Shown here piece after piece: positions 2,646 through 30,288 of a stretch of DNA of 32,267 bases. Position numbers and translations under genes: made by a program. This DNA comes from Candidatus Eiseniibacteriota bacterium (GTDB lineage Bacteria > Eisenbacteria > RBG-16-71-46). The stretch is taken from NCBI GenBank assembly GCA_025357055.1, contig JANXPZ010000060.1, positions 1-32,267 on the forward strand. The letters run 5' to 3'. How positions within the stretch are numbered: the stretch's first letter is position 1; each line of letters begins with the position of its first letter. Below the pieces are notes generated by a model. It was not told the origin of the DNA, searched no databases, and saw only the letters and a list, made by a program, of their open reading frames with translations.

Positions 2646-3882
2646 GACCCTGGCCGCGCCCGGGGCCCCGCCCGCGATGGCGCAGGATGAGGTTGGGCTC
2701 CTGGCGCCGGTCTATCCGCTCCCGCGCCTCGCGCTGGTCTCGGGCCGCGGGACCTGGGTCTGCGGCGCCGACGGGCGCCGCTACCTGGACTTCGTGAGCG
2801 GGATCGCCGTGAACGCCCTGGGGCATGCGCCCGCCGGAGTGGCGCGGGCCGTCGCGAGGCAGATGCGCACGCTCGTCCACTGCTCGAACCTGTACGCGAA
2901 CGCGCCCGGCGCGATGCTGGCCTCCGCGCTGGCCGGGGCGACCGGCTACGAGCGGGTGTTCTTCTGCAACAGCGGCACCGAGGGGGTCGAGGCGGCGCTC
3001 AAGTTCGCGCGGGCCTGGGCGCGCTCGCGGGGGCGCGCGACGGCGGGCGGCGCGGTGCTGGCCTTCCGGGGCGGCTTTCACGGGCGCACGGCCTTCTCCC
3101 TGTCGGCGACCTGGAAGCCCGCGTACCGGGAGCCCTTCGAGCCGCTGGTCCCCGGTGTGCGCTTCGCGGAGTTCAACCGCGTCGAGGCGCTCGACGCGGT
3201 GCTGGACGCGGAGGTCGAGACCGTGCTGGTCGAGCCCGTGCAGGGCGAGGGCGGCGCCATCCCCGCGACCCGCGAGTTCCTCGAAGCGCTGCGCGCGCGC
3301 TGCACCGCCCTGGGCGCGGCGCTGGTCTTCGACGAGGTGCAGTGCGGCATGGGGCGCTGCGGCCGGCTGCTCGCCTCCGAGCACCACGGCGTGCGCGCGG
3401 ACCTGGTCGTGCTCAGCAAGGCCCTGGGCGGGGGGCTTCCGCTGGGGGCCGTGCTCATGAGCGGCGAGGTCGCGGGGGCGCTCGCCCCCGGCATGCACGG
3501 CTGCACCTTCGGCGGCGGACCCGCAGTGACCGCGGCCGGCGCGCACGTGCTGGATCGCGTGCGCCGCCCCGGCTTCCTCGCGCGGGTGCGGCGGCAGGGG
3601 CGGGCGTTGCTGGGCGGGCTGGCGGCGGTGGCCGCGCGCCATCCGTCCCTCGGGGAGGCGCGCGGGCTCGGCCTGCTGTGCGCGGTCGACCTCGCGGCGG
3701 GAGCGCCGTTCGATCCTCCGGGGCTGGTGGCCGCGGCGCGTGACGAGGGGCTCCTGCTGGTGTGCGGCGGCGAGCGGGCGGTGCGCTTCCTGCCGCCGCT
3801 CACGGTGAGTTCCCAGGAGATCGCGCTCGCGCTGGAGCGTTTCGAAGCGGCCGTGACCCGACTCGAGAAGAAAGGGGACTGA
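2638..3882 (+). CDS. argD: Acetylornithine aminotransferase ArgD
   Basis: ArgD is a PLP enzyme that converts N-acetylglutamate semialdehyde to N-acetylornithine using glutamate. It is a class-III aminotransferase of 414 residues. Visible motifs are DFVSGIAVNALGH near residue 51, NSGTEGVEAALK (PLP phosphate binding, about 111-122), VEPVQGEGG at about 198-206, FDEVQCGMGRCG at about 231-242, and the PLP lysine in LSKALGGGLPLG (Lys261). ATG 2638 lies inside the end of argB, so translation is probably coupled. An internal ATG at 2677 also keeps the whole domain. The same family includes succinylornithine and GABA transaminases, but position between argB and argG settles the role. Confidence 0.95.
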   Translation: MPETLAAPGAPPAMAQDEVGLLAPVYPLPRLALVSGRGTWVCGADGRRYLDFVSGIAVNALGHAPAGVARAVARQMRTLVHCSNLYANAPGAMLASALAGATGYERVFFCNSGTEGVEAALKFARAWARSRGRATAGGAVLAFRGGFHGRTAFSLSATWKPAYREPFEPLVPGVRFAEFNRVEALDAVLDAEVETVLVEPVQGEGGAIPATREFLEALRARCTALGAALVFDEVQCGMGRCGRLLASEHHGVRADLVVLSKALGGGLPLGAVLMSGEVAGALAPGMHGCTFGGGPAVTAAGAHVLDRVRRPGFLARVRRQGRALLGGLAAVAARHPSLGEARGLGLLCAVDLAAGAPFDPPGLVAAARDEGLLLVCGGERAVRFLPPLTVSSQEIALALERFEAAVTRLEKKGD

Positions 3883-3883
3883 G

Positions 3884-5149
3884 ATGAAGAAGGGACGGAA
3901 GATCAGCAAGGTCGTGCTGGCATACTCGGGCGGGCTGGACACCAGCATCATCGTGCCCTGGCTCCGGGAGCACTATGGCTGCGAGGTCGTGTGCTACTGC
4001 TCCGACGTGGGGCAGGGCGCGGAGCTCGAGGGGCTCGAGGCCAAGGCGCTCGCCAGTGGCGCGAGCCAGGTCGTGGTCGAGGACCTGCGGACCACCTTCC
4101 TCGCCGATTTCGCCTTCCCGGCGCTGCGCGCGGGCGCGGTCTACGAGGGCCGCTACCTGCTCGGCACCTCGCTCGCGCGCCCGCTGATCGCGGCGCGCCA
4201 GGTGCACTGGGCGCTCCAGCTCGGAGCCGACGCCGTGGCCCACGGCTGCACCGGAAAGGGCAACGACCAGGTCCGCTTCGAGCTCACCTACCAGTCGCTG
4301 GCCCCGCAGCTGGCGGTGATCGCTCCGTGGCGCGAGTGGGACATCGTCTCGCGCGAGGACGCGTTGCTCTACGCGGAGGAGCGCGGCGTCCCGGTGGCCC
4401 AGACCTCGAAGGACCTCTTCTCGCGCGACGGCAACCTCTGGCACCTCTCGCACGAGGGCGGCCCGCTCGAGGACCCCGCGACGGTCGCCCCCGAGAGCAT
4501 GTACCGGCTGACGAACCGCCCCGGCCTCCAGCCCGGCACGCCCGATCGGCTGACGCTCGGCTTCGAGGAGGGCCGTCCGGTGCGCCTGGATGGCCAGCGG
4601 CTCGACCCGCTGAGCCTGGTGGAGCAGCTCAACGCGCGGGCCGGTCTGCACGGCGTCGGCCGCGTGGACATCGTCGAGAGCCGGCTGGTCGGGATGAAGT
4701 CGCGCGGCGTGTACGAGACGCCCGGCGGCACCGTGCTGCGCGAGGCGCTCGAGGACCTGTGTGCGCTCGTGCTGCCCCATGACCTGCTGCGCACCCGCGC
4801 CGAGCTGGCGCCGCGCTTCGCCGACCTGGTCTACAACGGGCAGTGGTTCTCGCCGTTGCGGGTGGCTCTGCAGGCGTTCGCGGATCGCGCCCTCGAGCCG
4901 GCGAGCGGCGAGGTGACGGTCGAGCTCTTCCGTGGCCAGGCCCGGGCCGTCGCGCGCTCGAGCCCGATGTCGCTCTACCGGCCGGGGCTCGCTTCGTTCG
5001 ACATGACCGGGTACGACGCCACGCACGCGGAGGGCTTCATCCGGCTCTTCGGCCTGCCCCTGGCCACCGCCGCCCGCCGGGACGCCGCGGCGCGGGCCGC
5101 GGTCACGGCCCCGGTGGCGGAGGCGCTCGAGGTGGACGATGTCGTCTGA
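3884..5149 (+). CDS. argG: Argininosuccinate synthase ArgG
   Basis: ArgG condenses citrulline and aspartate with ATP to argininosuccinate. The 421-residue protein has the N-type ATP pyrophosphatase loop YSGGLDTS at residues 14-21. It also has HGCTGKGNDQVRFEL, the citrulline/aspartate binding segment, and HLSHEGGPLEDP. The length is normal. ATG 3884 lies 1 base after the argD stop, with an AAGGGG ribosome site just upstream inside argD. The gene overlaps argH by 11 bases. The expected ornithine carbamoyltransferase gene, often next to argG, is missing from this cluster. Confidence 0.96.
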   Translation: MKKGRKISKVVLAYSGGLDTSIIVPWLREHYGCEVVCYCSDVGQGAELEGLEAKALASGASQVVVEDLRTTFLADFAFPALRAGAVYEGRYLLGTSLARPLIAARQVHWALQLGADAVAHGCTGKGNDQVRFELTYQSLAPQLAVIAPWREWDIVSREDALLYAEERGVPVAQTSKDLFSRDGNLWHLSHEGGPLEDPATVAPESMYRLTNRPGLQPGTPDRLTLGFEEGRPVRLDGQRLDPLSLVEQLNARAGLHGVGRVDIVESRLVGMKSRGVYETPGGTVLREALEDLCALVLPHDLLRTRAELAPRFADLVYNGQWFSPLRVALQAFADRALEPASGEVTVELFRGQARAVARSSPMSLYRPGLASFDMTGYDATHAEGFIRLFGLPLATAARRDAAARAAVTAPVAEALEVDDVV

Positions 5150-7160
5150 GCAGGTCTGGCGCGGTCGGGTGGCGGTGGACCTCGAACCCGGTGCGCGGCT
5201 TCTGAACGATTCCCTCGCGGTGGACCGTCGGCTGTGGCCGGAGGAGATCGAGCTGTCGCGCGCCTGGGCCCAGGCCATCGCCGAGGCGGGCGTGCTGGCG
5301 CCGGCCGACCTGGTCGCACTGCTCGGGGCCTGCGATGCGCTCGAGCAGGAGCTCGGCGACGGGCGAGCGGTGCTGGAGGGGGAGGACGTGCATTCCGCGA
5401 TCGAGGCGGCGCTGACCGCGCGTTGCGGGGAGCCGGCCCGCCGCCTGCATACCGGCCGCAGCCGGAACGACCAGGTGGCGACCCTGCTGCGCATGCGCGT
5501 GATGCGCCTCTGCGACGAGGCCGTCGAGGGCGTGCGCGCGCTCGAGCGCGCCCTGGTCGTGCAGGCGCGTGCCTCGGGCGACCGCGTGGTCGCGGCCTAC
5601 ACCCACCTTCAGCCGGCCCAGGCCGTCCGGCTGGCGCACTGGTGGCTCGCCCACGTCGCCGCCCTCGAGCGCGACGAGACCCGCTTCCAGGCCGCGCGGG
5701 AGGCGGCCGACCTGCTGCCGTTGGGGGCCGGCGCCGTGGCCGGGACTCCGCTGGTCCACGACCGGCTCGGGCTGGCGGCCCGCCTGGGGTTCAGCCGGCT
5801 CGCGGCCAACAGCATCGACGCCGTGGGCGACCGCGACTTCGCGCTCGAGTACCTGGGCGCCGCCGCGCTGCTGGGCCTGCACCTGTCGCGCCTCGCGGAG
5901 GACGTCGTGCTCGCCTGCTCGCCTGGCTTCGGCTGGTTCCGCCCGCCCGACGGGTTCTCGACCGGCTCGAGCCTGCTGCCGCAGAAGCGCAACCCGGACG
6001 TCTTCGAGCTGACGCGGGGCAAGACCGGCCGGCTGCTGGCCAACGTCCAGCGTCTCGCGGTGGTGCTCAAGGCGTTGCCGTCCGCGTACCAGAAGGATCT
6101 GCAGGAGGACAAGGAGGCGGTCTTCGACACGGCGGACACGCTGGCCGCGCTGCTGGATGTGCTGCCCGCGGCGCTCGCCGCCATCGAGACCGACGACGGG
6201 CGGCTGCGCGCGAGCCTGACGCCCGACCTGCTCGCGGTCGAGCTGGCCGACGCCCTGGTCGCGGCGGGGGAACCGTTCCGCGACGCACACGCGGCGGTGG
6301 GCCGGCTCTGGGCCGAGGCGGAGCGTGCCGGGGTCGTGCCCGGGGCGCTCCCTGAGGCCGTGCGCCTGGCGTTGTCGCCGCACTTCACCGGAGCCCGGCT
6401 CGCGGGGCTCTCCTTCGACGCGTCGTTGGCGCGTCGCGACCGTCCGCCGGGCACCGGGCCCGCGTCGGTCGCAGCCCAGGCGGCACGGCACGCGGCGCGC
6501 CTGGGGCTCGACGACGGCGATTCCGGAGACGACGAGATCGCGCTGCCCCGGCCGGCCCGCCGTCCGGCTCGCGGGCTGCTGCCCGCGGGGCCGCCGGCCG
6601 ATCGCGTGGCGCCGGCGTTCGTACGGGGCATCCGGCTGCGCCGGGCCACTCCCCAGGACGCACACGGGATCGGCCGGCTGGTGGCGGCCTACGTGGCGGA
6701 AGGCACGCTGCTCCCGCGTCCGGTGAGCGAGCTGTTCCAGTGCCTCCGCGAGTTCCACGTCGCGGTCGAGCCGGGTGGCGAGGTCGTGGCCTGCGCCGGG
6801 CTGCGGCTGCTCTGGGACGATCTGGGGGAGGTGCGCACGCTCGCGGTGCGTCCCGACCACCACGGCAACGGCCTCGGCGCCCAGCTGGTGGCGCGGGTGG
6901 TCGGGGATGCGCGGTCGCTGGGGCTCGGGCGCGTCATCGCCCTGACGCGGGAGGTGGCGTTCTTCGAGCGCTGCGGTTTCGCCGTCGTCGCCCGCGACGC
7001 GCTGCCGCGCAAAGTGTGGGCCGATTGCATCCGCTGCCCGCGGCGTCACGCCTGCGACGAGGTCGCGGTGTCGCTGGACCTGGTCCCCCTCGATCGCGAT
7101 GCCCTGAGCGCAGGCGCGGACGCAGGCGTGGCGGACGGCGCGCCGGGGCGGGCACGGTGA
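5139..7160 (+). CDS. argH: Argininosuccinate lyase fused to N-acetylglutamate synthase-type GNAT domain, ArgH(A)
   Basis: This is a 673-residue two-domain protein. Residues 1 to about 445 are argininosuccinate lyase, which splits argininosuccinate to arginine and fumarate. It has HTGRSRNDQVAT near 104-115 and the fumarase/lyase signature GSSLLPQKRNP near 276-286. After a linker rich in Ala, Pro, Arg and Asp, residues of about 493-655 form a GNAT acetyltransferase. Its acetyl-CoA loop reads HHGNGLG, where the usual first Arg/Gln is His. It then has FFERCGFAVV and a tail KVWADCIRCPRRHACDEVAV typical of short ArgA-like synthases. It probably makes N-acetylglutamate, the first step, so one protein holds the first and last steps. 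Such ArgH(A) fusions are known from marine gammaproteobacteria. ATG 5139 overlaps argG, and the stop overlaps argJ (GTGA). Confidence 0.93.
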   Translation: MSSEQVWRGRVAVDLEPGARLLNDSLAVDRRLWPEEIELSRAWAQAIAEAGVLAPADLVALLGACDALEQELGDGRAVLEGEDVHSAIEAALTARCGEPARRLHTGRSRNDQVATLLRMRVMRLCDEAVEGVRALERALVVQARASGDRVVAAYTHLQPAQAVRLAHWWLAHVAALERDETRFQAAREAADLLPLGAGAVAGTPLVHDRLGLAARLGFSRLAANSIDAVGDRDFALEYLGAAALLGLHLSRLAEDVVLACSPGFGWFRPPDGFSTGSSLLPQKRNPDVFELTRGKTGRLLANVQRLAVVLKALPSAYQKDLQEDKEAVFDTADTLAALLDVLPAALAAIETDDGRLRASLTPDLLAVELADALVAAGEPFRDAHAAVGRLWAEAERAGVVPGALPEAVRLALSPHFTGARLAGLSFDASLARRDRPPGTGPASVAAQAARHAARLGLDDGDSGDDEIALPRPARRPARGLLPAGPPADRVAPAFVRGIRLRRATPQDAHGIGRLVAAYVAEGTLLPRPVSELFQCLREFHVAVEPGGEVVACAGLRLLWDDLGEVRTLAVRPDHHGNGLGAQLVARVVGDARSLGLGRVIALTREVAFFERCGFAVVARDALPRKVWADCIRCPRRHACDEVAVSLDLVPLDRDALSAGADAGVADGAPGRAR

Positions 7161-8377
7161 GCGTGGCTCCAGCCGGCCCCGCGAACGTCTTCCGCCTGGC
7201 CCCGGGCTTCCGCGCGGGAGCCGCGGCCTGCGGTCTCAAGACGAGCGGGGCGCTCGACCTCGCCCTGGTCGTGGCCGACACTCCCGCGGCCGCGGCCGGC
7301 GTCTTCACCACCAACCTCGTCCAGGCCGCGCCGGTGCTTTTCGACCGCGCCGCGCTCGCCCGCCCCGGCGCGCGATTCCGCGCCGTGGTCGCGAACTCCG
7401 GCTGCGCCAACGCCTGCAGCGGCGAGCGCGGGCTCGCCGACGCGGCCGCCATGGCGGGCCGGACCGCCATGGCGCTGGGGTGCGCGCCGGAGGAGGTGCT
7501 GGTGCTCTCCACGGGCGTCATCGGCGTGCCGCTCGACCTCGAGAAGGTGACGCGGGGGATCGACGCGGCTGCGGCCCGGCTCGGCGGGGACGCGATCGAG
7601 GCCGCCCGCGCCGTGATGACGACCGACACCCGGCCCAAGACGGCGGAGGGCGAAGTCTTTCTTCCGGGCGGCCGTGCCGTCGTCCGGGGCTTCGCCAAGG
7701 GCGCGGGCATGATCCATCCCGGGATGGCCACCATGCTCGCCGTGATGACGACCGACGTGGTGGCCACGCCCGCCCTGCTCGCCCGCGCACTCCGCGGCGC
7801 GGCGGGGGAGAGCTTCAACCGCATCAGCGTGGACGGCGACATGAGCACGAACGACACGGTGCTGCTGCTCGCCTCGGGAACGTCGGGCGTGGAGGCCCGG
7901 GAGGCGGACGAGCCTTCGTTCACCGCGGCGCTCGCCGGAGTCTGCGTCGCGCTCGCGCGGCAGATCGCGCGGGATGGCGAGGGTGCGACGCGCCTGGTGG
8001 AGATCGCCGTGAGCGGGGCGGCGGACGTCGAACAGGCCCGCACCGTGGCCGGCGGCATCGCCCGCTCCAACCTGGTCAAGACCGCCATCCACGGCGGCGA
8101 CCCCAACTGGGGCCGGATTCTCGCGGCGGCCGGCTCCAGTGGCGCAGCGATCGATCCCGGGCGGCTGCGGCTCGCTTTCGGCCCTCCGGGGCGGGAGGTG
8201 TGCGTCGTCAAGCGCGGCAGCCGCGCGGACTACGACGAGCGCGCCGCGGCGTCGCTCCTGGCGCTCGATCCCGTGCACATCGGCCTCGATCTCGGCCTGG
8301 GCGAGGCGCGTGGCGTCGCCTGGACGTGCGACCTGAGCGCCGAGTACGTGGCCATCAACGCCCACTACACGACCTAG
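7157..8377 (+). CDS. argJ: Glutamate N-acetyltransferase ArgJ (ornithine acetyltransferase)
   Basis: ArgJ moves the acetyl group from N-acetylornithine to glutamate, releasing ornithine and recycling the acetyl carrier. Some members also use acetyl-CoA. The 406-residue Ntn-type proenzyme has the self-cleavage site in KGAGMIHPGMATML, with the nucleophile Thr192 becoming the N-terminus of the beta chain. ISVDGDMSTNDTV and HGGDPNWGRI are also family hallmarks. GTG 7157 is chosen because it overlaps the argH stop (GTGA) and precedes the conserved domain by about 20 residues; GTG 7163 is possible. It is the last gene of the operon and is followed by a hairpin. With the GNAT domain in the preceding gene, ArgJ may only need the recycling activity. 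Confidence 0.96.
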   Translation: MSVAPAGPANVFRLAPGFRAGAAACGLKTSGALDLALVVADTPAAAAGVFTTNLVQAAPVLFDRAALARPGARFRAVVANSGCANACSGERGLADAAAMAGRTAMALGCAPEEVLVLSTGVIGVPLDLEKVTRGIDAAAARLGGDAIEAARAVMTTDTRPKTAEGEVFLPGGRAVVRGFAKGAGMIHPGMATMLAVMTTDVVATPALLARALRGAAGESFNRISVDGDMSTNDTVLLLASGTSGVEAREADEPSFTAALAGVCVALARQIARDGEGATRLVEIAVSGAADVEQARTVAGGIARSNLVKTAIHGGDPNWGRILAAAGSSGAAIDPGRLRLAFGPPGREVCVVKRGSRADYDERAAASLLALDPVHIGLDLGLGEARGVAWTCDLSAEYVAINAHYTT

Positions 8378-8447: not shown

Positions 8448-9782
8448 CTAGCCCGACTTGCCGCCCACCGTGATCTCGGCGAACTTGATGGTCGGCGCCG
8501 AGACGGAGTCGCGCAACTCGAGGTCGTTTCCCACCATCTCGACGTTCTGCAGCAGCGTGCCGAGGTTGGCGGAGATGGTGATCTCGGACACCGGGAAGGC
8601 GAGAGCGCCCTTCTCGATCCACATGCCGAACGCACCCACCGAGATGTCGCCGGTCGTCGGCTCCTGCCCCAGCCCGAGGTAGCGCGTGAGGTAGAGGCCC
8701 TTGTCCACCGACTTGATGATGTCCTCGGGGCTGGACGTGCCCGCGGCCCAGTAGAGATTGTTCGGGCCGCCCGAATTCCCCGTCGAGCGCTGCTTGAGCT
8801 TCCTGCCCCAGTAGGTGTCGAGCAGGTAGCTCTTCAGCACGCCCTGCTCGATGACCCCGATCCTGCGGCAGGGCACGCCCTCGTCGTCGAACGGGACCGT
8901 CCCGCGGCCCCCCACCAGCAGGCCGTCGTCCACGATGTTGACCCGCTCGTTGCCGACCTTCGTGCCCAGCTTGTCGGCGAAGGGCGACTGCCGGCGCGCG
9001 ATGCTGACGCCGGCCAGGCACTGCCCCAGGAAGCCGAGCAGCCAGGCCGCCATCTGCGGGTCGAACACGACGGGCACGTTCTGGCTCTCGACCATACGGC
9101 CCCCGAGCAGCCGCGCCACGCGCTCGACGGCGACCTTGCCGATGGCCTCCGGCGCCTTCAGGTCGGACAGCTGGGTCGAGGAGTCGCCCCAGTAGTCCTC
9201 GAACAGGTTGGTGCCCTCGCCGCCCTGGAAGCCGACGCCGCAGTTGATGAGGCTGCGGCGGTAGGAGCCGGCGAAGCCCTTCGAGTTCGCCAGCGTCACG
9301 TCCCAGTTGAACGAGTTGCAGGTGGCGCCCGTGGACTTCTTGATCCGCGGATCCTTGAGACCCACCGCCTCCATCGCCTTGGCGATGGCGATGCGCTGCT
9401 CGACCGTCACCTCGATCACCGCGGGATCGAAGATCTTGAGATCCTCGGCCTTCGCCTGGACCGGCTCCGCCTCGGGCAGTCCTCCAAACGGGTCCTGGCC
9501 GGCCAGCCGGGCGCGCGCGACCGCGTTGTCCACCAGCCGCTCGAGGGTCTCGAGCGTGAAGTCCGAGGACGACGCGCTGGCGGCCTTGCCGTCCACGAAG
9601 ACGCGCAGGCTGAGGCCCTTGAACACGGACTCGGTGAGCCGGTCGATGTTCTGGTCGAGGACGCTGACGCGGGACTCCAGCCCCTCCTGGATGGACACCT
9701 CGACCTCGGAGGCGCCCTGCTTGCCGCCGTACGTCACCAGGCTCTGGGCCAGCCCCATCCGATCGTTGCTCTTCGCGCTCAT
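8448..9782 (-). CDS. pmbA: TldE/PmbA-type subunit of the TldD/TldE protease
   Basis: This is a 444-residue TldD/PmbA family protein. In known systems TldE is the non-catalytic partner that closes a chamber with TldD, cutting unfolded small peptides. Here the metal motif HExxxH is absent, as expected for TldE. NVPVVFDPQMAAWLL and the C-terminal NVEMVGNDLELRDSVSAPTIK match family blocks. The start ATG (9780-9782) overlaps the stop of the upstream tldD-like gene as ATGA, so the two are co-translated. It has no signal peptide or Tat motif of its own, unlike its partner. Family assignment is secure; substrate is unknown. Confidence 0.92.
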   Translation of the reverse strand: MSAKSNDRMGLAQSLVTYGGKQGASEVEVSIQEGLESRVSVLDQNIDRLTESVFKGLSLRVFVDGKAASASSSDFTLETLERLVDNAVARARLAGQDPFGGLPEAEPVQAKAEDLKIFDPAVIEVTVEQRIAIAKAMEAVGLKDPRIKKSTGATCNSFNWDVTLANSKGFAGSYRRSLINCGVGFQGGEGTNLFEDYWGDSSTQLSDLKAPEAIGKVAVERVARLLGGRMVESQNVPVVFDPQMAAWLLGFLGQCLAGVSIARRQSPFADKLGTKVGNERVNIVDDGLLVGGRGTVPFDDEGVPCRRIGVIEQGVLKSYLLDTYWGRKLKQRSTGNSGGPNNLYWAAGTSSPEDIIKSVDKGLYLTRYLGLGQEPTTGDISVGAFGMWIEKGALAFPVSEITISANLGTLLQNVEMVGNDLELRDSVSAPTIKFAEITVGGKSG

Positions 9783-11308
9783 GACCGACCTCCCACCGTC
9801 ATCTGCCGGATCTTGAAGGTCGGCGTGCCCGCGGGGACCGGCGCCGTCTGGCCATCCTTGCCGCAGGAGCCCAGGAAGAACGCCAGGTCGTTGCCGATCA
9901 TCTCCACCTCTTTGAGGATCTGGACGTTGGTGCCGATCAGGGTGGCGTTCTTCACCGGCTGCGCGAGCCTGCCGTCCTCGATGGCGTAGCCGAGGTTGAC
10001 GGAGAAAGTGAACTTGCCCGTGTTCTCGACCATCCCGCCCGCGTAGCTCTCGGCGTAGAAGCCCTTCTTGACCGACTTGATGATGTCCTCGGCGCTCGCG
10101 GAGCCGGGTGCCAGCACCGTGTTGTTCATGCGCGGGATCGGCAGGTTGCTGAAGCTCTGGCGCCGGCCGTGGCCGTTGGGCGCGGTCTTCAGGATCCTCG
10201 CGGAGAGCCGGTCGTGCAGGTAGCTGACCAGCCTGCCCTTGTCGATCAGCATGACCTTCTGGGTGGGCGTGCCCTCGTCGTCGACGTTGAGGCTGCCGCG
10301 GTATTGGGGGATGGTGGCGTCGTCGTAGATCGTCACGCTCGGGTCCGCGACCATCTGGCCCAGCTTGTCCCACATGATCGAGGTCTTCTGCCAGTTGCCG
10401 TCGGCCTCGAGCGGGTGGCCCACCGCCTCGTGGACCATCACGCCCGAATTGAAGCGGCCCAGCACCACCGGCATCTCGCCCGGCGCCGGGTCGGCAGCTG
10501 AGAGCAGGATCACCGCTTCCTTCCCTGCCGCCTCGCCGATCTCCTTCGGGGTCGTGCCGGCGGTGCGGTAGAAGGTCATCCCGACGCGGCCTCCCTTGTT
10601 GCTGGAGCCCGTGACCCGCTTGCCCTTCTCCTCGGCGGTCGCGCTGGCGCGCAGCCGCGCCTGCGGCCGCGCATCGGACACCATCAACCCGTCGCTGTTG
10701 ACGATGGTCACGCACTGCAGCGAGTCGCCGAGGTTCACGACCACCTTGGTGATGCGCGGGTCGTGCGCCTTGGCCGCCGCGTAGGCTTCCTTGACCAGCG
10801 TGATGCGGTCCCCCAGCGGGGCGTCGGCGAACGGGCTCGTCATCAGGTAGACCTGCCGGGCCGGCTGGACCGGCTTGATCGCCGCCACGCGGACCTTCGC
10901 TCCGGTGGAGGCGATGGCCGCGGCCGTCAGGGCCGCGCGCTGCATCGTCTCGGGCGTGAGGTCCGAGGTGTAGGCGTAGCCGGTCTTCTTGCCGTTCAGC
11001 ACTCGGATCCCCACGCCCAGCGTGATGGCCTCGGTGGACTCGCGGATGATGTCGTCTTCCATCACCACGTTGTTGTTCAGCGCGTATTCGAAGAAGAGCT
11101 CGGCGAAGTCACCGCCCTTCGAGAGGGCCGCATCGAGCACCTTCTTCATGATCTCCTTCGTGACCCCGAAGCGGCTCGCGAACAACTCCTCACCCGGCTT
11201 GAGGATCATCCCGGCGAACAACTGGTCGTAGAACAGGCTCGAGAGCACGACGGCCCCGGCCCCGGCCCCGGCGAGCTGGAGGAACTTCCGTCGTTCGATC
11301 GGCTTCAT
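9779..11308 (-). CDS. tldD: TldD-type metalloprotease with Tat signal
   Basis: This is the catalytic TldD subunit, 509 residues. The zinc motif HEAVGH is at residues 293-298, and a C-terminal GSCGKDGQ holds the cysteine that serves as a metal ligand in E. coli TldD. The N-terminus MKPIERRKFLQLAGAGAG has a clear twin-arginine motif followed by a hydrophobic stretch to about residue 32. The protein is therefore predicted to fold in the cytoplasm and be exported. Classical E. coli TldD is cytoplasmic. ATG 11308 is chosen because it begins the Tat signal; upstream in-frame sequence is low-complexity and unlike the family. It is the first gene of a two-gene operon with the TldE-like partner. Confidence 0.93.
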   Translation of the reverse strand: MKPIERRKFLQLAGAGAGAVVLSSLFYDQLFAGMILKPGEELFASRFGVTKEIMKKVLDAALSKGGDFAELFFEYALNNNVVMEDDIIRESTEAITLGVGIRVLNGKKTGYAYTSDLTPETMQRAALTAAAIASTGAKVRVAAIKPVQPARQVYLMTSPFADAPLGDRITLVKEAYAAAKAHDPRITKVVVNLGDSLQCVTIVNSDGLMVSDARPQARLRASATAEEKGKRVTGSSNKGGRVGMTFYRTAGTTPKEIGEAAGKEAVILLSAADPAPGEMPVVLGRFNSGVMVHEAVGHPLEADGNWQKTSIMWDKLGQMVADPSVTIYDDATIPQYRGSLNVDDEGTPTQKVMLIDKGRLVSYLHDRLSARILKTAPNGHGRRQSFSNLPIPRMNNTVLAPGSASAEDIIKSVKKGFYAESYAGGMVENTGKFTFSVNLGYAIEDGRLAQPVKNATLIGTNVQILKEVEMIGNDLAFFLGSCGKDGQTAPVPAGTPTFKIRQMTVGGRS

Positions 11309-22794: not shown

Positions 22795-23982
22795 ATGAAG
22801 TACGCCATCGTCCTGCCCGACGGAGCGGCCGACGATCCGCTGGCGCAGCTCGGCGGGAAGACCCCGCTGGAGGCCGCCCGCATCCCGCACATGGACCGGG
22901 TCGCGGAGCACGGTCGGCTGGGCCGCACGGTGACGATCCCGGAAGGGTTCACGCCCGCGACCGACGTGGGCACACTCTCGGTCCTGGGCTATGACCCGCT
23001 CGTCTGCTACTCCGGTCGCGCGCCCATCGAGGCCGCGGCGAAGGGCTTGTCGGCCCGGCCCGACCAGCTGATCTTCCGCTGCAACTTCGTGACCGTCCTG
23101 GACGGACTCATGAAGGACAACACGGCCGGCCACATCGCCCAGGCCGAGGCGGACGCGCTCATCGCCGACCTGCAGCGGGAGCTGGCGGACGAGGGCTGCG
23201 ATCTCCACGCGGGCGTGACCTACCGCAATCTCATGCTGCTCGCGGATGCCGCGGAGATGACTCTCCGCTGCGCCCCGCCCCACGACATCATCGGCCAGCC
23301 GGTCGCCGCCCACGCGCCGCACGGAACGGGCGCCGGGCGGATCGCGAGGATCGCCGAGCGGGCGCGCGCCGTGATCACCGCGCACGACGTCAATCGCCGG
23401 CGACGCGAGCAGGGGCGCGATCCGGTCACCGACATCTGGCTCTGGGGCCAGGGCCGGCCGGCGCGCCTGGAACCGTTCGCCTCGCGCTTCGGACTGCGGG
23501 CGGCCGTGATCACGGGCGTGGACATCCTGCGCGGCATGGCCCGCCTGATGGGCATGGAGATCATCGCGGTGCCGGGCGCGACGGGCTACATCGACACCGA
23601 CTACGCCGGCAAGGGCCGGGCGGCCGTGCGCGCGCTCGACGATCTCGACCTGGTCATCGTCCACGTCGAGGCGGCCGACGAATCCGCGCACCTGGGCGAC
23701 GCCGCCGAAAAGGTCCGCGCACTCGAGCGGATGGACGAGGCGATCGTGGGGCCGCTGCTCGAGCGCCTGGCACGCGAGCCGGCGTGGCGTGTCCTGGTCG
23801 CCGTGGACCATCCGACCCTGACCACGACGCGGGGGCATTCGGCCATCCCGCCGCTGTTCGCCTTCGCCGGCACGGGCATCGAGGCTGTCGAGCGCGCTCC
23901 CTTCACGGAGCGGGCAGCCGATGCTGGTGGCTACTGGATCGCCCCGGGCCACCGGCTGATGGAGGTCTTCCTGCGGGGCTGA
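22795..23982 (+). CDS. ApgM-like phosphomutase-fold protein, probable homoserine kinase
   Basis: This 395-residue protein belongs to the alkaline phosphatase superfamily, archaeal-type cofactor-independent phosphoglycerate mutase branch. It matches the subgroup proposed as an alternative homoserine kinase: PDGAADDPLAQLGGKTPLEA at the start, IWLWGQG, VPGATGYIDTDYAGK, HVEAADESAHLGD and DHPT near the metal site. The nucleophile position, usually Ser in a GSDVANLS-like motif, reads ATDVGTLS with Thr56. If active as a kinase it would make O-phosphohomoserine, the substrate of the threonine synthase encoded at 30414-31790. The ribosome site is AGGCCCCGAGG before ATG 22795. A phosphoglycerate mutase role cannot be excluded. 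It converges with the appendage operon. Confidence 0.85.
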   Translation: MKYAIVLPDGAADDPLAQLGGKTPLEAARIPHMDRVAEHGRLGRTVTIPEGFTPATDVGTLSVLGYDPLVCYSGRAPIEAAAKGLSARPDQLIFRCNFVTVLDGLMKDNTAGHIAQAEADALIADLQRELADEGCDLHAGVTYRNLMLLADAAEMTLRCAPPHDIIGQPVAAHAPHGTGAGRIARIAERARAVITAHDVNRRRREQGRDPVTDIWLWGQGRPARLEPFASRFGLRAAVITGVDILRGMARLMGMEIIAVPGATGYIDTDYAGKGRAAVRALDDLDLVIVHVEAADESAHLGDAAEKVRALERMDEAIVGPLLERLAREPAWRVLVAVDHPTLTTTRGHSAIPPLFAFAGTGIEAVERAPFTERAADAGGYWIAPGHRLMEVFLRG

Positions 23983-24049: not shown

Positions 24050-26383
24050 TCAGAACTTCAGCTGCTGGACGGGCCGCGAGACGTGGAACGTCACGCTCCG
24101 GTCCGCTCCCGCGGCTCCGGCGAGCCCGACCCGGAGGACTCCCTGCTCTGCGCGGTAGCCGAAGGACAGGCTCTCCGGCGCCAGGCGCAGCTCGTGCTCC
24201 CCGGTGGGCAGCGGTCCGAAGCGAAAGTTCCCCGCGCTGTCGGTGTACGTGAACTCCATCCCGTCGATCAGGATCTCCACGCCGGCGACCCCCGAGCTGT
24301 CCCGGTCGTCGACCACGCGTCCCTGGATCCACCCGACGCTCCGCTGGAGTGGGAGGGTCAGCTCGAGGAGGTCGTCCTGGGCGACCTCGACCTCGAGCGG
24401 CGCGGTCGCGTCGATCGAGAACTGGGTGGGGACGGAGGCGGGCAGGATCCGGATGACGTGCTTCCCGGCGAGCACGAAGGCGAGGAAGACGCCGTCAGCA
24501 TCGGTCACCAGCGGCTGTCGGGCGTTCCCGTCCACCGAGATCTCGACCCCGGCGATCCCCGGCTCGCCCTGCTGCCAGCGCCCGTCGCCGTCGCCATCCT
24601 CGAACACGCGGCCCCTCAGGAGGAGGCGCTCCGGCACCGTGGGATCCAGGCGCGGAGCGGTGGCCCTGCTGGTGCGGCCGGTGGAATGGGCCACGCTGAG
24701 TGTCACGGTGTGGAGGACCCCCATCGAGGAGTTGCTGAGCCCGTAGCGCGCGACCAGGAAGAGGCGCGGGTTCGGCTGCATGACCGCCTCGACCCTGCCG
24801 ATGGTCTGCGCCAGCCGTGGCACGCCCGGGCTCGTCCCGTCGCGCGTCACGCCGAGCTGGCCGGAGAGCGTCACCAGCGGCCGGGGCAGCTTCATCCCCG
24901 TGAAGTCCACGAAGGACTCCACGCGGGCTCCATAGGGCTCCTGCCACGCGATCCGATGCTGGAGCGAGAGCGTGCCGGAGGGCCCCACGCGCAGGCCAAG
25001 ACTCCCGGAGAGGTAGTCCCGGCCACCGCGACCGCGGTGATCGATCCGGCTCCACTCGAGCGTGGAGTTCCGGCCGGGCCCCCACTGCTGTGAGACGGAC
25101 GCGGCGCTCGTCGCCACCCGCTCGCGGAACAGGTCACCTTCGCGGCGCCTGAGTTCGTGGGAGGCCGAGAGGCCGGTCCCCGTGCCCGCGGCCCTCCACG
25201 CGATCCTGCCCCCGACCTGGTTCCCGTGCGCCCGGTATTCGGTCAGGCCCCCCTCGGTTCGTCCGCGGTCCACGAACACGGGATTCGTCCAGCGACCCGC
25301 CCAGCCCGTGAGCGCGATCCGCCGGGGAGCGCGCCAGGCGAGGTTCAGGTCCTCCGTCAGCCCCGGGACCGGTTGCAGGGCGCCCAGGTAGCTGAGTGCA
25401 CGCGGCTGCCCCCGGGTGGCTTGGAGGTGCGCGCCCACGCTCCATTCGCGCAGCTCGCTCTGCGCGCTCAGGTCTCCCGCGAGGCCGCGCGCGGCGCTGC
25501 CGGTGGAGGACACGGCCCGCGTCGTGAAGATGTCCCCCAGGAGATCCACGCGCCTGCCCTTCACCACCGGCACGCCGAAGGAGAGGCCAGCGCCCTGGGC
25601 GCTCCGGAACCGGTCCGAGAGGCCTGAGCCGGCGGGGCCGCTGCCCGACAGGCCATAGAGGAGGCCCTGCAGGCGTGCGCCCCGCGGCCGTTCCACGCGC
25701 CAGAACCCGGCGCCGAAGCGCCGCGCGAAGTCGCTGCCCTCGAATGCGGCGTAGCTCACCGGCAGGTTGCCGACGAGCCCGCCGGCGCGCCAGGCCGGCG
25801 ACCGGCCATCGCCCCCGCGACGTCGTTCGAACAGGAGGCCGCGGGCGCCGGTGCCGTTGGCGCCGGAGGACCCTGCGGGCAGCAGGGCGTCTCCGGCGTC
25901 AGCCTGCCAGCCCGTCTTCGACGTGAATCCGAGTCGACGCCGCAGGAGGTGGGAGCGTCCGTCCTGGTTCATCAGCTCGCCCTGCAGTTCGAGTCTCCCT
26001 GCGGGGAGGTAGTCGAGGAGGTCCAGCCGGAGACGTTCCCGGCTGGTCGCGGCCCCTCCGCGTGGGCGGCTTCCTTCTTCGGAGAACTCCCCGTTGGCCT
26101 GGTCCCAGGGCAGCGACTGCTCCCAGGGCCTCTGCGCGAAACCGGCGAGGGAGCGCAGCGGAAGCGGGGGCGTGCCCTCGCTGCCCCTGCGCGCGGCGAC
26201 CAGCGGCCTGGCCAGCGGGAACTCGGCCCGGGGGATGCGACGCAGCTCGAAGGAGGCCGGGGGCGCCGAGAACCGGATGGCGTCGGAGGCCGCAGGTTCT
26301 GCGGGGTCGGCCCTGGCGATGGCGCAGGCCGCCAGGAGCACGAGCGACATCACGCTCCCTGCGTTCCGGCTGGCTCCTGGCAT
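24050..26383 (-). CDS. Outer-membrane barrel with two C-terminal SdrB-like domains, usher-like candidate
   Basis: This 777-residue exported protein has a signal peptide (residues 1-25, MSLVLLAACAIARA region). Residues of about 100-580 alternate polar and nonpolar residues, with many Arg/Gly turns, as in a large beta-barrel. Two Ig/SdrB-like (CNA-B or carboxypeptidase-regulatory-like) domains follow. The first, near 587-660, begins LLLRGRVFEDGDGDG with a calcium-loop-like DGDGDG. The second, near 680-750, contains IQGRVVDDRD and TDSAGNFRFGPLPTGEH. The last residue is Phe, as in many barrels. It is the last gene after two pilin-like subunits and a PapD-like chaperone, the position of an usher. 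Its sequence does not show the classical FimD N-terminal or plug motifs. ATG 26383 has GGGAG upstream; GTG 26389 is possible. Export of the subunits is inference. Confidence 0.75.
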   Translation of the reverse strand: MPGASRNAGSVMSLVLLAACAIARADPAEPAASDAIRFSAPPASFELRRIPRAEFPLARPLVAARRGSEGTPPLPLRSLAGFAQRPWEQSLPWDQANGEFSEEGSRPRGGAATSRERLRLDLLDYLPAGRLELQGELMNQDGRSHLLRRRLGFTSKTGWQADAGDALLPAGSSGANGTGARGLLFERRRGGDGRSPAWRAGGLVGNLPVSYAAFEGSDFARRFGAGFWRVERPRGARLQGLLYGLSGSGPAGSGLSDRFRSAQGAGLSFGVPVVKGRRVDLLGDIFTTRAVSSTGSAARGLAGDLSAQSELREWSVGAHLQATRGQPRALSYLGALQPVPGLTEDLNLAWRAPRRIALTGWAGRWTNPVFVDRGRTEGGLTEYRAHGNQVGGRIAWRAAGTGTGLSASHELRRREGDLFRERVATSAASVSQQWGPGRNSTLEWSRIDHRGRGGRDYLSGSLGLRVGPSGTLSLQHRIAWQEPYGARVESFVDFTGMKLPRPLVTLSGQLGVTRDGTSPGVPRLAQTIGRVEAVMQPNPRLFLVARYGLSNSSMGVLHTVTLSVAHSTGRTSRATAPRLDPTVPERLLLRGRVFEDGDGDGRWQQGEPGIAGVEISVDGNARQPLVTDADGVFLAFVLAGKHVIRILPASVPTQFSIDATAPLEVEVAQDDLLELTLPLQRSVGWIQGRVVDDRDSSGVAGVEILIDGMEFTYTDSAGNFRFGPLPTGEHELRLAPESLSFGYRAEQGVLRVGLAGAAGADRSVTFHVSRPVQQLKF

Positions 26384-26405
26384 GGTCACTCCCGTGCGGC
26401 TCCTG

Positions 26406-27251
26406 CTACGGGGCCGCTTCCGTCAGAGAGGCCCCGGCAGCGGCCGGCACCACGACGTCGAACTCCTTGATGCCCTGGAGCAGCGACTCCTCGCCGCTGT
26501 CCACCGTGAGCAGCAGCCGATACGGACCGGCGCCGGTCGGACGCCACGGGCAGCGGTACACGGTCTCGCTCCCCGGCAGGCAGACGCGGTAGGGCAGCCC
26601 CTGCTGGAACAGGACCGTTCCGGCCCGGTCCGTCACCTGGAACCAGCCGGTGGGATAGAAGTAGACGTTCCCGCGGTTGGCGACCTGCGCCACGAGGTTC
26701 AGCGTGTCGCGGTGAGCGCCCGGCTGGACCGCCATCCCTGTGATCGTGCTCCCGTGCGATTCCGTGCCCGCGGCCGTGAGGTAGACCGTGGTTCCCATGC
26801 GCACGCGCGTCGCGAGTCCCAGCTTCGAGCGTCGCGTCCCCACCTGCCCTTCGAAGAAGAGGATGGTCCAGTAGGACCCGCGCGCGGTGTCGGGCATGGC
26901 CGCCGTCACGCGCACGGTCCGCATCCCGTGGGGGGGGACGGTGAAATCCGACAGGTCCGCGCGGACCCACGCCGATGCGGAGCGTGGCTGCGAGCCCCGC
27001 GGCAGGAGATCCACGCCGCCGCCGGGGGTCGCGGCCCAGTCCTCCACGGTCGTCACGACGCGCACCGGCTCGTCGCCGTTGTTGAATACCTCCACGGCCT
27101 CGGTGCGGGATCCGCCCGGCGCCAGCGTGAGCCGGAGCTTCATGGGCGCGACCCCCATCGCAAGACTGCCCCAGGCGGGCGTCGTGGTGAGGAGCAGGAG
27201 CCCCGCGATGGCGAGGGCGGGCCCGGCGGTCTTCCCATTCGTCGTTCTCAT
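26406..27251 (-). CDS. PapD-like periplasmic chaperone
   Basis: This 281-residue protein has a signal peptide (to about residue 28). Two Ig-like domains of the PapD type follow. The first begins MGVAPMKLRLTLAPGGSRTE and contains VEVFNNGDEPVRV and VEDW. Later it has PPHGMRTVRVT and a G1-like strand region GSYWTILFFEG. The second domain holds two cysteines (RVCLPGSETVYRCPW) that could form a disulfide. Such chaperones lend a strand to pilin subunits that lack one. The start ATG overlaps the stop of subunit B (ATGA, 27248-27251), so the two are translated together. The barrel gene follows after 22 bases. It is divergent from FimC/PapD at the usual Arg/Lys anchor, which I cannot place with certainty. 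Confidence 0.82.
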   Translation of the reverse strand: MRTTNGKTAGPALAIAGLLLLTTTPAWGSLAMGVAPMKLRLTLAPGGSRTEAVEVFNNGDEPVRVVTTVEDWAATPGGGVDLLPRGSQPRSASAWVRADLSDFTVPPHGMRTVRVTAAMPDTARGSYWTILFFEGQVGTRRSKLGLATRVRMGTTVYLTAAGTESHGSTITGMAVQPGAHRDTLNLVAQVANRGNVYFYPTGWFQVTDRAGTVLFQQGLPYRVCLPGSETVYRCPWRPTGAGPYRLLLTVDSGEESLLQGIKEFDVVVPAAAGASLTEAAP

Positions 27252-27781
27252 TGCTCCACCACGGTGTAGATGAGGGTGTTGGTGTAGCTCGTGGTGCCGG
27301 CGTCGCCGGCATCGGGGTAGTCCCACAGGTTGATGATCCTGAGGTCGGTGTCCACGTCCTCGCTCGAGGCGGGCCCGCCCGCGGCCCAGAGGGCCTGGTC
27401 CGAGGAGGTGATGGTCGTGTACGTGGGGATGAGGCTCCCCGCCGTCGGGCAGCGGATCAGGAGGTGCGACATGTCGATGGGCGGGCTCCCGGCGGTGCAG
27501 CCGACGAAGAGGATGAGCCCCGCCGGGGCTGTCGTGGTGACCCGCACGCGGATCCCTCCCGCCGGGGCGAGCGATTCCACGAAGCCCGTCTGGTAGTCGC
27601 CCTGCGAGGGGGTGAGCGAGCGGCTGCTCGTGACGATGCTGATGCTCGTCTGGGCGCGCGCGACCGGGCTCACCGACAAGACGAGGGCCAGCGCCAGGAG
27701 CACGCGTGCGAGCGCGCATCGGACCGGCGCCCGCCGCTCGGCGGGCCTCGGAGGACTGGCGACCACTTCGATCACTTCCAT
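27248..27781 (-). CDS. Secreted pilin-like subunit B
   Basis: This 177-residue protein has a long basic N-region and a hydrophobic core LLALALVLSVSPVARA ending in a signal-peptidase site near residue 44. The mature part is beta-rich and a clear paralogue of the gene at 28023-28559. Shared blocks are SLTPSQGDYQTG, RVRVTTTAPAG, SDQALW, TDLRIINLWDY, and the C-terminus SYTNTLIYTVVEQ. It has two cysteines (VGC and LIRC) that could pair. ATG 27781 is chosen for AAGG five bases upstream; the in-frame ATG 27895 would give an implausibly long N-region. It probably is a minor or tip subunit of the same structure (inference). No database family is recognised with certainty. Confidence 0.8.
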   Translation of the reverse strand: MEVIEVVASPPRPAERRAPVRCALARVLLALALVLSVSPVARAQTSISIVTSSRSLTPSQGDYQTGFVESLAPAGGIRVRVTTTAPAGLILFVGCTAGSPPIDMSHLLIRCPTAGSLIPTYTTITSSDQALWAAGGPASSEDVDTDLRIINLWDYPDAGDAGTTSYTNTLIYTVVEQ

Positions 27782-27980
27782 CGCGGCCTTCACGGACTTC
27801 CATTTCCGGTGAGGGGACACCGCCGCGCTCCAGATCCGAGTCCTGTCCCGACCCTCAACCGTCGGGATGACCTGGAGATGCGCTCCAACCTGCATCCGTG
27901 AGGCCCACTCGTCCGGCGGGGCGGCGCGAACCGACCAGCCGGCGCCGGCGGGGGGGCCGGCGGTTGAGACCTGTGGGCCC

Positions 27981-28003
27981 GGGCGCCCCCGAGGGCGCCC
28001 TCG
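27981..28003 (-). terminator. Stem-loop between the two subunit genes, possible attenuator
   Basis: GGGCGCCC at 27981-27988 and 27993-28000 form an 8-bp stem with a CCGA loop. A second, alternative palindrome CGAGGGCGCCCTCG occupies 27990-28003. It lies 19 bases after the stop of subunit A and 199 bases before subunit B. Partial termination or RNA protection here would give more of subunit A, as is known for major pilins. The functional role is inference. Confidence 0.5.
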
Positions 28004-28022
28004 TTGTCTGAGCTGCCCCCGG

Positions 28023-28559
28023 CTACTGGACGACGATCGTGTAGGTCAGTGTGTTGGTGTACGCCGTCGTTCCGCCGCCGCCCGCGTCCGAATAGTCCCA
28101 GAGGTTCTGCACCCGGATGTCGGTCTGGATCGTGCTGTAGGTGGGCGACGTCGTGGTCGTCGACCAGAGGTTCTGGTCGCTTGCCGTGATCGCCGTGAAG
28201 GTGCCCTGCGTCGATCCCGAGCCGCCGGCGGCCGTCTGCGTCCTGAAGAGCAGGTCGGCCAGCGCGATCTCCGGCGAACCGTCGGCGCACCTCACCTGCA
28301 GGATCGCGCCGGTGGAGCTGTTGGTCCGGATCCGGACGTCGATGCCGGAGGCGCCCAGCGCATCGACCTGCCCCGCCTCGTAGTTGGCCTGGTCGGGCGA
28401 GAGGGTGATACTGGCGTCCAGCACTTCGATCTGGACGGTGGCGTCGGCCTGAAGGATGACGTCAGAGGTGCCGGACGTGGCCGCGATCGCCGCACCGCTG
28501 GTCCCCAGCGCCAGCACGATGGCCGGCACGAGGAGCGCGAGAACCCTGGAGCGCTGCAT
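28023..28559 (-). CDS. Secreted pilin-like subunit A (probable major subunit)
   Basis: This 178-residue protein has a signal peptide MQRSRVLALLVPAIVLALG ending near AAIAA (about residue 27). The mature part is Ser/Thr/Ala-rich and beta-strand-like, with few charged residues and a single cysteine. It shares with subunit B the blocks ITLSPDQANYEAGQ, DVRIRTNSSTGA, SDQNLW, TDIRVQNLWDYSDAGGGG and a C-terminus YTNTLTYTIVVQ. ATG 28559 has the strongest ribosome site in the region (GGAGGA, 7-base spacing), fitting a highly made structural subunit. It is the first gene of the locus, behind a sigma-28-like promoter. The pilin role is inferred from order and the chaperone; no named family is recognised. 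Confidence 0.8.
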   Translation of the reverse strand: MQRSRVLALLVPAIVLALGTSGAAIAATSGTSDVILQADATVQIEVLDASITLSPDQANYEAGQVDALGASGIDVRIRTNSSTGAILQVRCADGSPEIALADLLFRTQTAAGGSGSTQGTFTAITASDQNLWSTTTTSPTYSTIQTDIRVQNLWDYSDAGGGGTTAYTNTLTYTIVVQ

Positions 28560-28638
28560 GGTGGAATCCTCCGAGGAGAGGGAGTCTCTGCCATGGTTCG
28601 CCGGAGCGCTGCAGGTCATGAGGTCGGCAGTCCCGTAG

Positions 28639-28666
28639 TCATCGGCGGGATCGGGTCGGCGCTTTA
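28639..28666 (-). promoter_or_regulatory. Sigma-28-like promoter of the appendage operon
   Basis: On the minus strand TAAA (28663-28666) is followed, after 16 bases, by GCCGATGA (28639-28646). The FliA-type consensus is TAAA, 15 bases, GCCGATAA. The match is 4 of 4 and 7 of 8, with the spacer one base long. Transcription would begin near 28632, about 73 bases before the subunit A start codon. This rests on motif match only. Confidence 0.5.
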
Positions 28667-28863: not shown

Positions 28864-30288
28864 CTACTTCTTCTGCGCCCCGAGCAGGGCGCGGTCGAGG
28901 TCGGCGATGATGTCGTCGGGATGCTCGGCCCCGACGCAGAGGCGGATCAGGTTCGGCGGGATGCCGGCGAGCTTGCGGCCCGCTTCGCCCTGCTGCTGGT
29001 GGGTCGAGATCGCGGGGATGGTGGCGACGCTCTTGATCCTCCCGAGATCGGTCGCGCGCCAGATCCGCTCCAGGCCGTCGAAGACCTTCCGCGTCGTCCC
29101 GGCTCCGCCCTTCACGCAGAACGACATCAGGTGCCCGTAGCGATTGACGGGCTTGCCGTAGAGGTCGTCGTGCTCGGCGTCCACCAGCCACAGGTACCGG
29201 CTGGCCAGTCCGTGCAGCGGGTGGTCCGGCAGGCCGAGGTACTCGACGCGCTCGACCATCGGATGGCGCTCGAGCCACTCCGACACCTTCATCGTGCTGC
29301 GGCTCATCAGGTCCATCTTGGAGCGCAGCGTGCGCATGTCGTTGAGTGTCATGATCGCCTGCAGGGGGTGCAGGTTGGGGCCGTAGTCGCGGTTCGGCAG
29401 GTACTTGATGTAGAGCGCGAAGTCCTCGCGCAAGGCGTCGATCGGGACGTTCGTCACGAGGCCCTTGCGCGCGATGACCGCACCGCAGATCCCGAACCCG
29501 CTCGAGGACAGGGTCTTCGAGGCCGACTGCACGACGATGTCCGCGCCGTGGCGGATGGGGCGGAGCAGCGCCGGCGTGGCGATCGTGCTGTCCACGATCA
29601 GCGGCAGCCCGTGCGTGTGGGCGAGGTCGGCCACGGCCTGGACGTCGAAGAAGCCCTGCTGCGGGTTGCTCGGCAGTTCGCCGTAGAGGAAACGCGTGTG
29701 CCTGTCGATCTTCCTGGCCCACTCGTCCAGGTCGGTCGGGTCCTGGATCCAGCGGCACTCGATGTCGCGCTCCTGCTGCAGGCGGACGCTGAACTGCTGG
29801 AAGGTGCCGCCGTAGCACTGCGCGGTGGCGAGGAAGTTGCGGGGCTCGTGGACGTCGTGCCGGGTGTGCAGGAGGAAGGGCTGGACGGCCGTCATGATCG
29901 CCGCCATGCCCGAGGAGGTCGAGCAGCAGGAGGTCTCGCCGTCGAACCCGTAGCCCTCGAGCAGCGCCAGCGCCCACTCGTAGTAGTAGGTGGACGGGTT
30001 CGCGATCCGCGAGTAGGTCCAGGACGGGATCAGGTAGGCGAGCGCGGCCGCCATCTCGTCGGAGTCGCGGAAGGCCTGGGAGGTGGACATGAAGATGGGC
30101 TCGATGATCGAGCCCTGGTAGTCCTCGATCGCGTCCTGGACCGAGTAGAGGCCGTGCACCGCGATGGTATCGAAGCGCCACTTTTTCACGACGTCGCGGA
30201 TGTAGCCGGCGCGCCGGGCGAGGTACTCGTCGTTGCGGTCGATGTAGCGCTGCATCCCCGGCGTGATCTCGACATCTCGGTCGGCCAT
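28864..30288 (-). CDS. Cys/Met metabolism PLP-dependent enzyme, divergent
   Basis: This 474-residue fold-type-I PLP enzyme belongs to the gamma-synthase group (cystathionine gamma-synthase, O-acylhomoserine sulfhydrylase, methionine gamma-lyase). Family marks are TYSRIANPSTYYYEWALALLEG near 91-112, TSSGMAAIMTA, ELPSNPQ and the PLP lysine in VQSASKTLSSSG (Lys258). The block after the lysine usually reads KYLxGH; here it is TLSSSGFG. The protein also has about 50 extra N-terminal residues, so it is an atypical branch. GGAGG sits before ATG 30288. It is divergent from threonine synthase across 125 bases. A role in making homocysteine or methionine from activated homoserine fits the neighbour, but lyase activity is equally possible. 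Confidence 0.85.
   Translation of the reverse strand: MADRDVEITPGMQRYIDRNDEYLARRAGYIRDVVKKWRFDTIAVHGLYSVQDAIEDYQGSIIEPIFMSTSQAFRDSDEMAAALAYLIPSWTYSRIANPSTYYYEWALALLEGYGFDGETSCCSTSSGMAAIMTAVQPFLLHTRHDVHEPRNFLATAQCYGGTFQQFSVRLQQERDIECRWIQDPTDLDEWARKIDRHTRFLYGELPSNPQQGFFDVQAVADLAHTHGLPLIVDSTIATPALLRPIRHGADIVVQSASKTLSSSGFGICGAVIARKGLVTNVPIDALREDFALYIKYLPNRDYGPNLHPLQAIMTLNDMRTLRSKMDLMSRSTMKVSEWLERHPMVERVEYLGLPDHPLHGLASRYLWLVDAEHDDLYGKPVNRYGHLMSFCVKGGAGTTRKVFDGLERIWRATDLGRIKSVATIPAISTHQQQGEAGRKLAGIPPNLIRLCVGAEHPDDIIADLDRALLGAQKK

Follow-up and report, generated by a model that had tools for sequence, protein, structure and literature searches.

A four-gene locus of Candidatus Eisenbacteria that may encode a non-classical chaperone-usher-like pathway with a plug-less platform

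The classical chaperone-usher pili, such as Fim and Pap, are encoded in the order subunit, chaperone, usher. The chaperone has two immunoglobulin (Ig) domains and the usher is a large outer-membrane barrel. Ushers are recognised by their sequence, by a plug, which gates the known ushers, and by an N-terminal domain, and they carry two β-sandwich domains at the C-terminus. A further described system is ECP (EcpB and EcpC), and in Gram-positive bacteria there is the WxL/WxLIP system, where PF06030 is the peptidoglycan-binding domain of WxLIP. WxL clusters typically comprise two small proteins and one protein with two Ig domains, and insertion of a strand into WxL has been predicted (PMC10599100). 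Here we describe a locus of four genes, here called SubA, SubB, chaperone and barrel, in a 3.3-Mb draft genome of Candidatus Eisenbacteria. The stretch analysed, referred to as the window, is the whole of contig C188 (32,267 nucleotides). We favour, without great assurance, a reading in which the four genes encode a chaperone-usher-like pathway of a non-classical sort, whose platform has no plug, and together they probably build a surface fibre of an undescribed kind. Neither its sequence nor a plug nor an N-terminal domain places the barrel in the usher family, yet it probably works like an usher.

All four genes lie on the minus strand with intact reading frames, are retained by a gene call based on codon usage, and have normal codon usage, which bears out the layout given in an earlier note made from the sequence alone. 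The first gene, SubA (28023..28559), is predicted from its reading frame and codon usage to encode a small secreted β-rich subunit of 178 residues. It is followed by a second, paralogous subunit, SubB (27248..27781), of 177 residues; the start is uncertain, and a later one would give 151 residues. The chaperone gene (26406..27251), whose ATG overlaps the SubB stop codon as ATGA, encodes a periplasmic chaperone-like protein of 281 residues with two predicted Ig domains. The last gene (24050..26389) encodes an exported protein of 779 residues from a GTG start or 777 from an ATG start, ending in ...VQQLKF, which is modelled as an outer-membrane barrel and is the candidate usher-like platform. The order is that of the classical pili.

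Over 20 further loci, in genomes from several phyla, repeat the subunit-chaperone-barrel order, with the nearest copies in Candidatus Eisenbacteria, and this recurrence implies that the order is more than chance and that the genes are conserved together. The full set of four genes is present in L046 and L047 (the contig of the latter is identical to L079), both with a counterpart of SubB, while L080, L029, L031, L036, L032 and L034 have one to three subunits together with a chaperone and a barrel. The window barrel, used as the sole query in a sequence search, found mainly its SdrB-type domains in relatives, and relatives were therefore gathered by way of the chaperone. When 385 genomes were searched with a profile of the chaperone, 55 proved to have relatives, the majority lying outside the phylum of the window; within its own class the distribution is sporadic (10 of 47 genomes). 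Forty-one chaperone genes, that of the window among them, had 2.5 kb or more of sequence downstream, and 25 of these were followed on the same strand by a barrel-family open reading frame of at least 550 residues, usually with small secreted genes upstream of the chaperone. The tally omits the near relatives L029, L031, L033 and L036, which were missed by a crude second gene caller or were untallied. In the open literature, searches that combined Eisenbacteria and chaperone-usher, or usher and SdrD, brought up no relevant report.

SubA and SubB are 42% identical and are paralogues, as had been proposed, with a common C-terminal pattern, YTNTL.YT.V.Q. Orthologues of SubA in relatives are 49-69% identical, and those that are named are all from Candidatus Eisenbacteria. 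The statement that the subunits fit no nameable family also stands: a Pfam scan of both proteins matched no family, and there was no Pfam match to the WxL domain in SubA, SubB or ten distant subunits. The subunits share an alternating C-terminal strand, with an end like YTNTLTYTVV, and have another alternating strand shortly after the signal peptide. To judge by their patterns, these N- and C-terminal strands are compatible with donor-strand completion of an incomplete Ig fold. The small secreted genes upstream of other chaperones in the family often carry the motif hydrophobic-x-[YFWL]-T-[LVIM] at the C-terminus of their products.

The barrel protein matches Pfam SdrD_B (PF17210) at residues 594-636 (E 2e-7) and CarboxypepD_reg (PF13620) at residues 688-736 (E 1e-9). 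An AlphaFold2 (AF2) model from an alignment of seven sequences, of low confidence with a predicted local distance difference test score (pLDDT) of 55, has residues 1-118 disordered, a barrel region at residues ~119-568 (24686..26035) with at least 22 clear strands and some uncertain ones, and then two sandwich domains, at residues ~586-660 (SdrD_B-like, 24410..24634) and ~684-771 (CarboxypepD_reg-like, 24077..24340). The earlier note had seen two SdrB-like end domains and suggested that Ig-like domains stand in place of the C-terminal domains of FimD. There are indeed two domains at this position, of which one is SdrD_B and the other CarboxypepD_reg; ushers themselves have two sandwiches at the C-terminus, to which these domains correspond in position, and they are not a foreign addition. 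The same note drew attention to the terminal Phe, which is present and is kept in near relatives only. In the model it comes after the last β-sandwich and not after the last barrel strand, and the protein of L029 runs beyond it; it is thus not evidence of a signal for the β-barrel assembly machinery (BAM), and that role was set aside.

When the model was compared by Foldseek with 350,542 PDB chains, the top eleven matches were FimD or PapC, with E-values between 1.5e-7 and 6.5e-6 and alignments longer than 700 columns; LptD (6e-4) and TonB receptors (~1e-3) came next. This agrees with the earlier description of the barrel as usher-like, and a TonB-type or porin-type channel was rejected on the same ground. 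No plug was found: listed strands are at most 17 residues apart, and no loop has the size of a plug. The usher N-terminal docking domain is likewise not found in the model, and the suggestion that FimD plug and N-terminal motifs are missing thus holds. PF00577, the usher family, had no match in the window barrel, its relatives or the whole genome, and other usher models of Pfam had none in the window barrel. PDB sequence searches with the window barrel and with a subunit profile gave nothing usable.

Within the disordered arm there is one conserved motif, at residues 46-65 (26195..26254; ASFELRRIPRAEFPLARPLV), which is aligned in all near relatives and is the single such motif, ASFELRRIPRAEFPLA, in the arms of the window barrel and these relatives. 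The barrel of L046 (10401-13988) has a long disordered N-terminal third with several degenerate copies, where the window barrel has one; copies at ranks 1, 2 and 4 scored better than all 500 shuffles.

The window model is weak, with a template modelling (TM) score of ~0.2 to ushers, and for this reason a family member, L096, was modelled from 15 sequences. The resulting model has a pLDDT of 84.7 and consists of two N-terminal Ig domains, a barrel of 26 strands and two C-terminal sandwiches. Its nine best Foldseek matches are ushers (E 3.9e-15 to 7.9e-12), with alignments to FimD/PapC that again exceed 700 columns, and the best other barrel is LptD (4e-7). Again there is no plug, the longest gap between listed strands being 13 residues. 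Classical ushers have 24 strands, against 26 in L096 and 22 clear plus uncertain ones in the window. The position of the usher N-terminal domain is taken in L096 by NEW3-like Ig domains, and in other relatives by a NEW3-like Ig domain or a domain like that at the N-terminus of secretins; in L088 (7432-9747) a secretin-type domain, T2SS-T3SS_pil_N (E 2e-5), opens the barrel protein and takes the place of Ig domains or of a disordered arm. In profile comparisons, it is chiefly the last strands and the sandwich domains that link the barrel groups of the window and of L096; beyond this they are joined by synteny and by independent structure matches. The high-confidence model of L096 is hence indirect evidence for the window protein. 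Among the relatives, barrel and chaperone carry TPR-like C-terminal extensions in L083/L142 and L086, and the barrel gene of L083 is immediately followed by a second chaperone gene.

The chaperone can be placed by its sequence profile. A profile of 25 family members aligned by hhalign with eight pilus chaperones of E. coli K-12 across both Ig domains (194 columns, probability 94%, E 1.5e-7, the value for one single comparison), while column-shuffled controls reached E 0.1 at best. A profile of distant members aligned with EcpB alone at E 3.4e-6. This colinear alignment over both domains, which is one of profiles and not of models, supports the earlier naming of the protein as a PapD-like chaperone. 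EcpB is also the nearest known chaperone in its motifs, sharing R-[IVMFY]-G in the G1 strand, NTGN and PG with the family. The putative G1 donor strand in the window is at residues ~147-159 (26775..26813), RVRMGTTVYL. The first domain is also related to PF06030: the match in the window chaperone is below cut-off (E 0.018), those in relatives have E-values of 4e-4 to 2.7e-6, and L123 and G291 are above cut-off, L123 with a weak PapD_N match in addition. A match at E 8.9e-9 also joins the family to the NEW3-like tandem Ig domains of the barrels that it accompanies, and this limits the specificity of the two-domain match of PapD type; the E. coli chaperones match these barrel domains weakly, over one domain (E 0.0045). 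A PDB sequence search with the window chaperone gave nothing usable, and the chaperone profile reached WxLIP structures at E 0.32. On these alignments we place the protein as a two-domain member of the PapD superfamily, within a wide group of Ig proteins that lies between WxLIP, NEW3 and PapD.

On the basis of these observations, a pathway can be outlined. SubA and SubB would be exported to the periplasm, where the two-Ig-domain protein would bind them and probably complete their fold with its G1 strand. The complex of chaperone and subunit would be brought to the outer-membrane platform, possibly by means of the arm motif and the two C-terminal sandwiches, and the subunits would cross the wide, plug-less barrel. 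The N-terminal strand of each subunit would displace the chaperone strand in its neighbour, so that a polymer forms, either a fibre or a layer on the surface. All steps that come after export are ones that we infer.

In contrast to the classical pili, the locus has no plug, usher N-terminal domain, PF00577 match, chaperone anchor of the K112 type or recognisable adhesin gene. A number of results weigh against such a pathway. The missing plug is the part that gates the known ushers. The match to ushers is low by TM-score, at ~0.2 in the window model and 0.3-0.4 in that of L096; the moderate values of the latter indicate a shared architecture and strand order, and not a close superposition. In profile comparisons of the barrels with E. 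coli ushers, TonB receptors, LptD and BamA nothing was significant. Residues that anchor the subunit in classical and non-classical chaperones (PMC4654587) are mostly not conserved: the classical Lys is Gly, the equivalents of EcpB R89 and Y169 are not kept, and R148 is mixed, so that subunit binding must differ in detail. In a further difference from ECP, the window barrel has no sequence match to EcpC; a TD..G.F stretch at the C-terminus of EcpC resembles the CarboxypepD_reg domain by eye, and the comparison is not significant (E 0.015, with 1 of 100 shuffles equally good). Finally, two related chaperones have a C-terminal SPOR domain, in L046 (9221-10366) at E 1.9e-10 and in L080 (2517-3728) weakly, which suggests a protein bound to peptidoglycan and not one that shuttles.

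The last point somewhat favours the strongest rival explanation, that the locus is a diderm counterpart of a WxL cluster, in which the Ig protein would not release the subunits as a chaperone does but would be a permanent partner that completes them and anchors them on peptidoglycan, and the barrel would fix or display the complex at the outer membrane with no fibre formed. The WxL/WxLIP system is the closest relative other than pili, and was overlooked in the earlier note. Its clusters likewise combine two small secreted proteins with a two-Ig partner, and strand insertion is predicted there (PMC10599100), and when 31 whole genomes were searched with PF06030 the matches fell on the chaperone genes of this family, two of them above the curated cut-off. 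In the 0.8-Mb single-contig genome G105, the locus L098 (2907-7830) contains secreted proteins and two family chaperones, one with a C-terminal segment like a membrane helix, with no barrel within the 14 kb fetched, and this arrangement looks like WxL/WxLIP. A link between the window locus and that system is plausible. Nevertheless, the window chaperone has neither a SPOR domain nor a membrane helix, the window subunits match no WxL model, and an outer-membrane barrel is added. A barrel of this family, which is nearest to ushers among solved structures, follows the chaperone in 25 of the 41 cases, and anchoring alone does not call for a barrel of 22-26 strands. We regard this explanation as unlikely, while taking it seriously.

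It is less probable still, and in our view distinctly so, that the barrel protein is nothing more than a common type of outer-membrane pore to which Ig-like periplasmic domains are attached, and that it shares an operon with two secreted proteins and their binding protein without moving them across the membrane. The low TM-scores and the lack of significant sequence similarity to ushers are consistent with a pore, as is the fit of MtrB, also with 26 strands, to the L096 model, which is about equal by TM-score (0.32/0.43). Against this, ushers lead by orders of magnitude in E-value in both structure searches, and the barrel accompanies chaperone and subunits across several phyla. That the locus is a decaying chaperone-usher operon, no longer functional after losing plug and N-terminal domain, in a genome with a second, larger system on another contig, is very improbable given four intact frames, normal codon usage and a plug-less layout conserved in distant relatives.

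This second system is on contig C9 (L145, G000:C9), at 225-5097 on the minus strand, and consists of a DUF4402 subunit (E 1.3e-28), a chaperone of the family (E 1.5e-11) and a barrel of 1084 residues. It resembles the window in gene order, in its related chaperone and in the SdrD_B domain of the barrel. It differs in the DUF4402 subunit and in the larger barrel, where a long N-terminal region or domain and a plug-like segment (LPPGWEVELYRNG...YGPHGQRRTEN), both missing from the window barrel, can be made out by eye. Profile tests of this barrel against E. coli ushers were not significant, so these usher-like features are a lead only.

In the window, the locus is flanked by two genes whose sequences read as phosphoglycerate-mutase-like (22795-23982, plus strand) and as like those of pyridoxal phosphate (PLP) enzymes (28864-30288, minus strand). 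Scans for promoters and terminators gave no result. An apparent arginine-biosynthesis run (221-8377; argR, C, B, D, G, H and J-like by reading) and, following it, a TldD/TldE-like pair (8448-11308) are unrelated to the appendage locus.

Returning to the chaperone-usher-like pathway, we suggest tentatively, and at a little short of an even chance, that it represents a separate, widespread and unnamed class of chaperone-dependent surface assembly in diderms, in which a chaperone related to WxLIP and PapD delivers subunits to a plug-less usher. If this is true, the WxL system of Gram-positive bacteria and the chaperone-usher pili of Gram-negative bacteria would be branches of one superfamily of donor-strand assembly. 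The chaperone family joins these two systems, which are usually treated apart, and thereby opens the origin of chaperone-usher pathways to testing. A widespread family that keeps the barrel and the C-terminal sandwiches without plug or docking domain would reveal the minimal platform, and raises the question of how so wide an open barrel stays sealed. It would also offer a way to approach the surface appendages of uncultured phyla in which standard annotation detects none.

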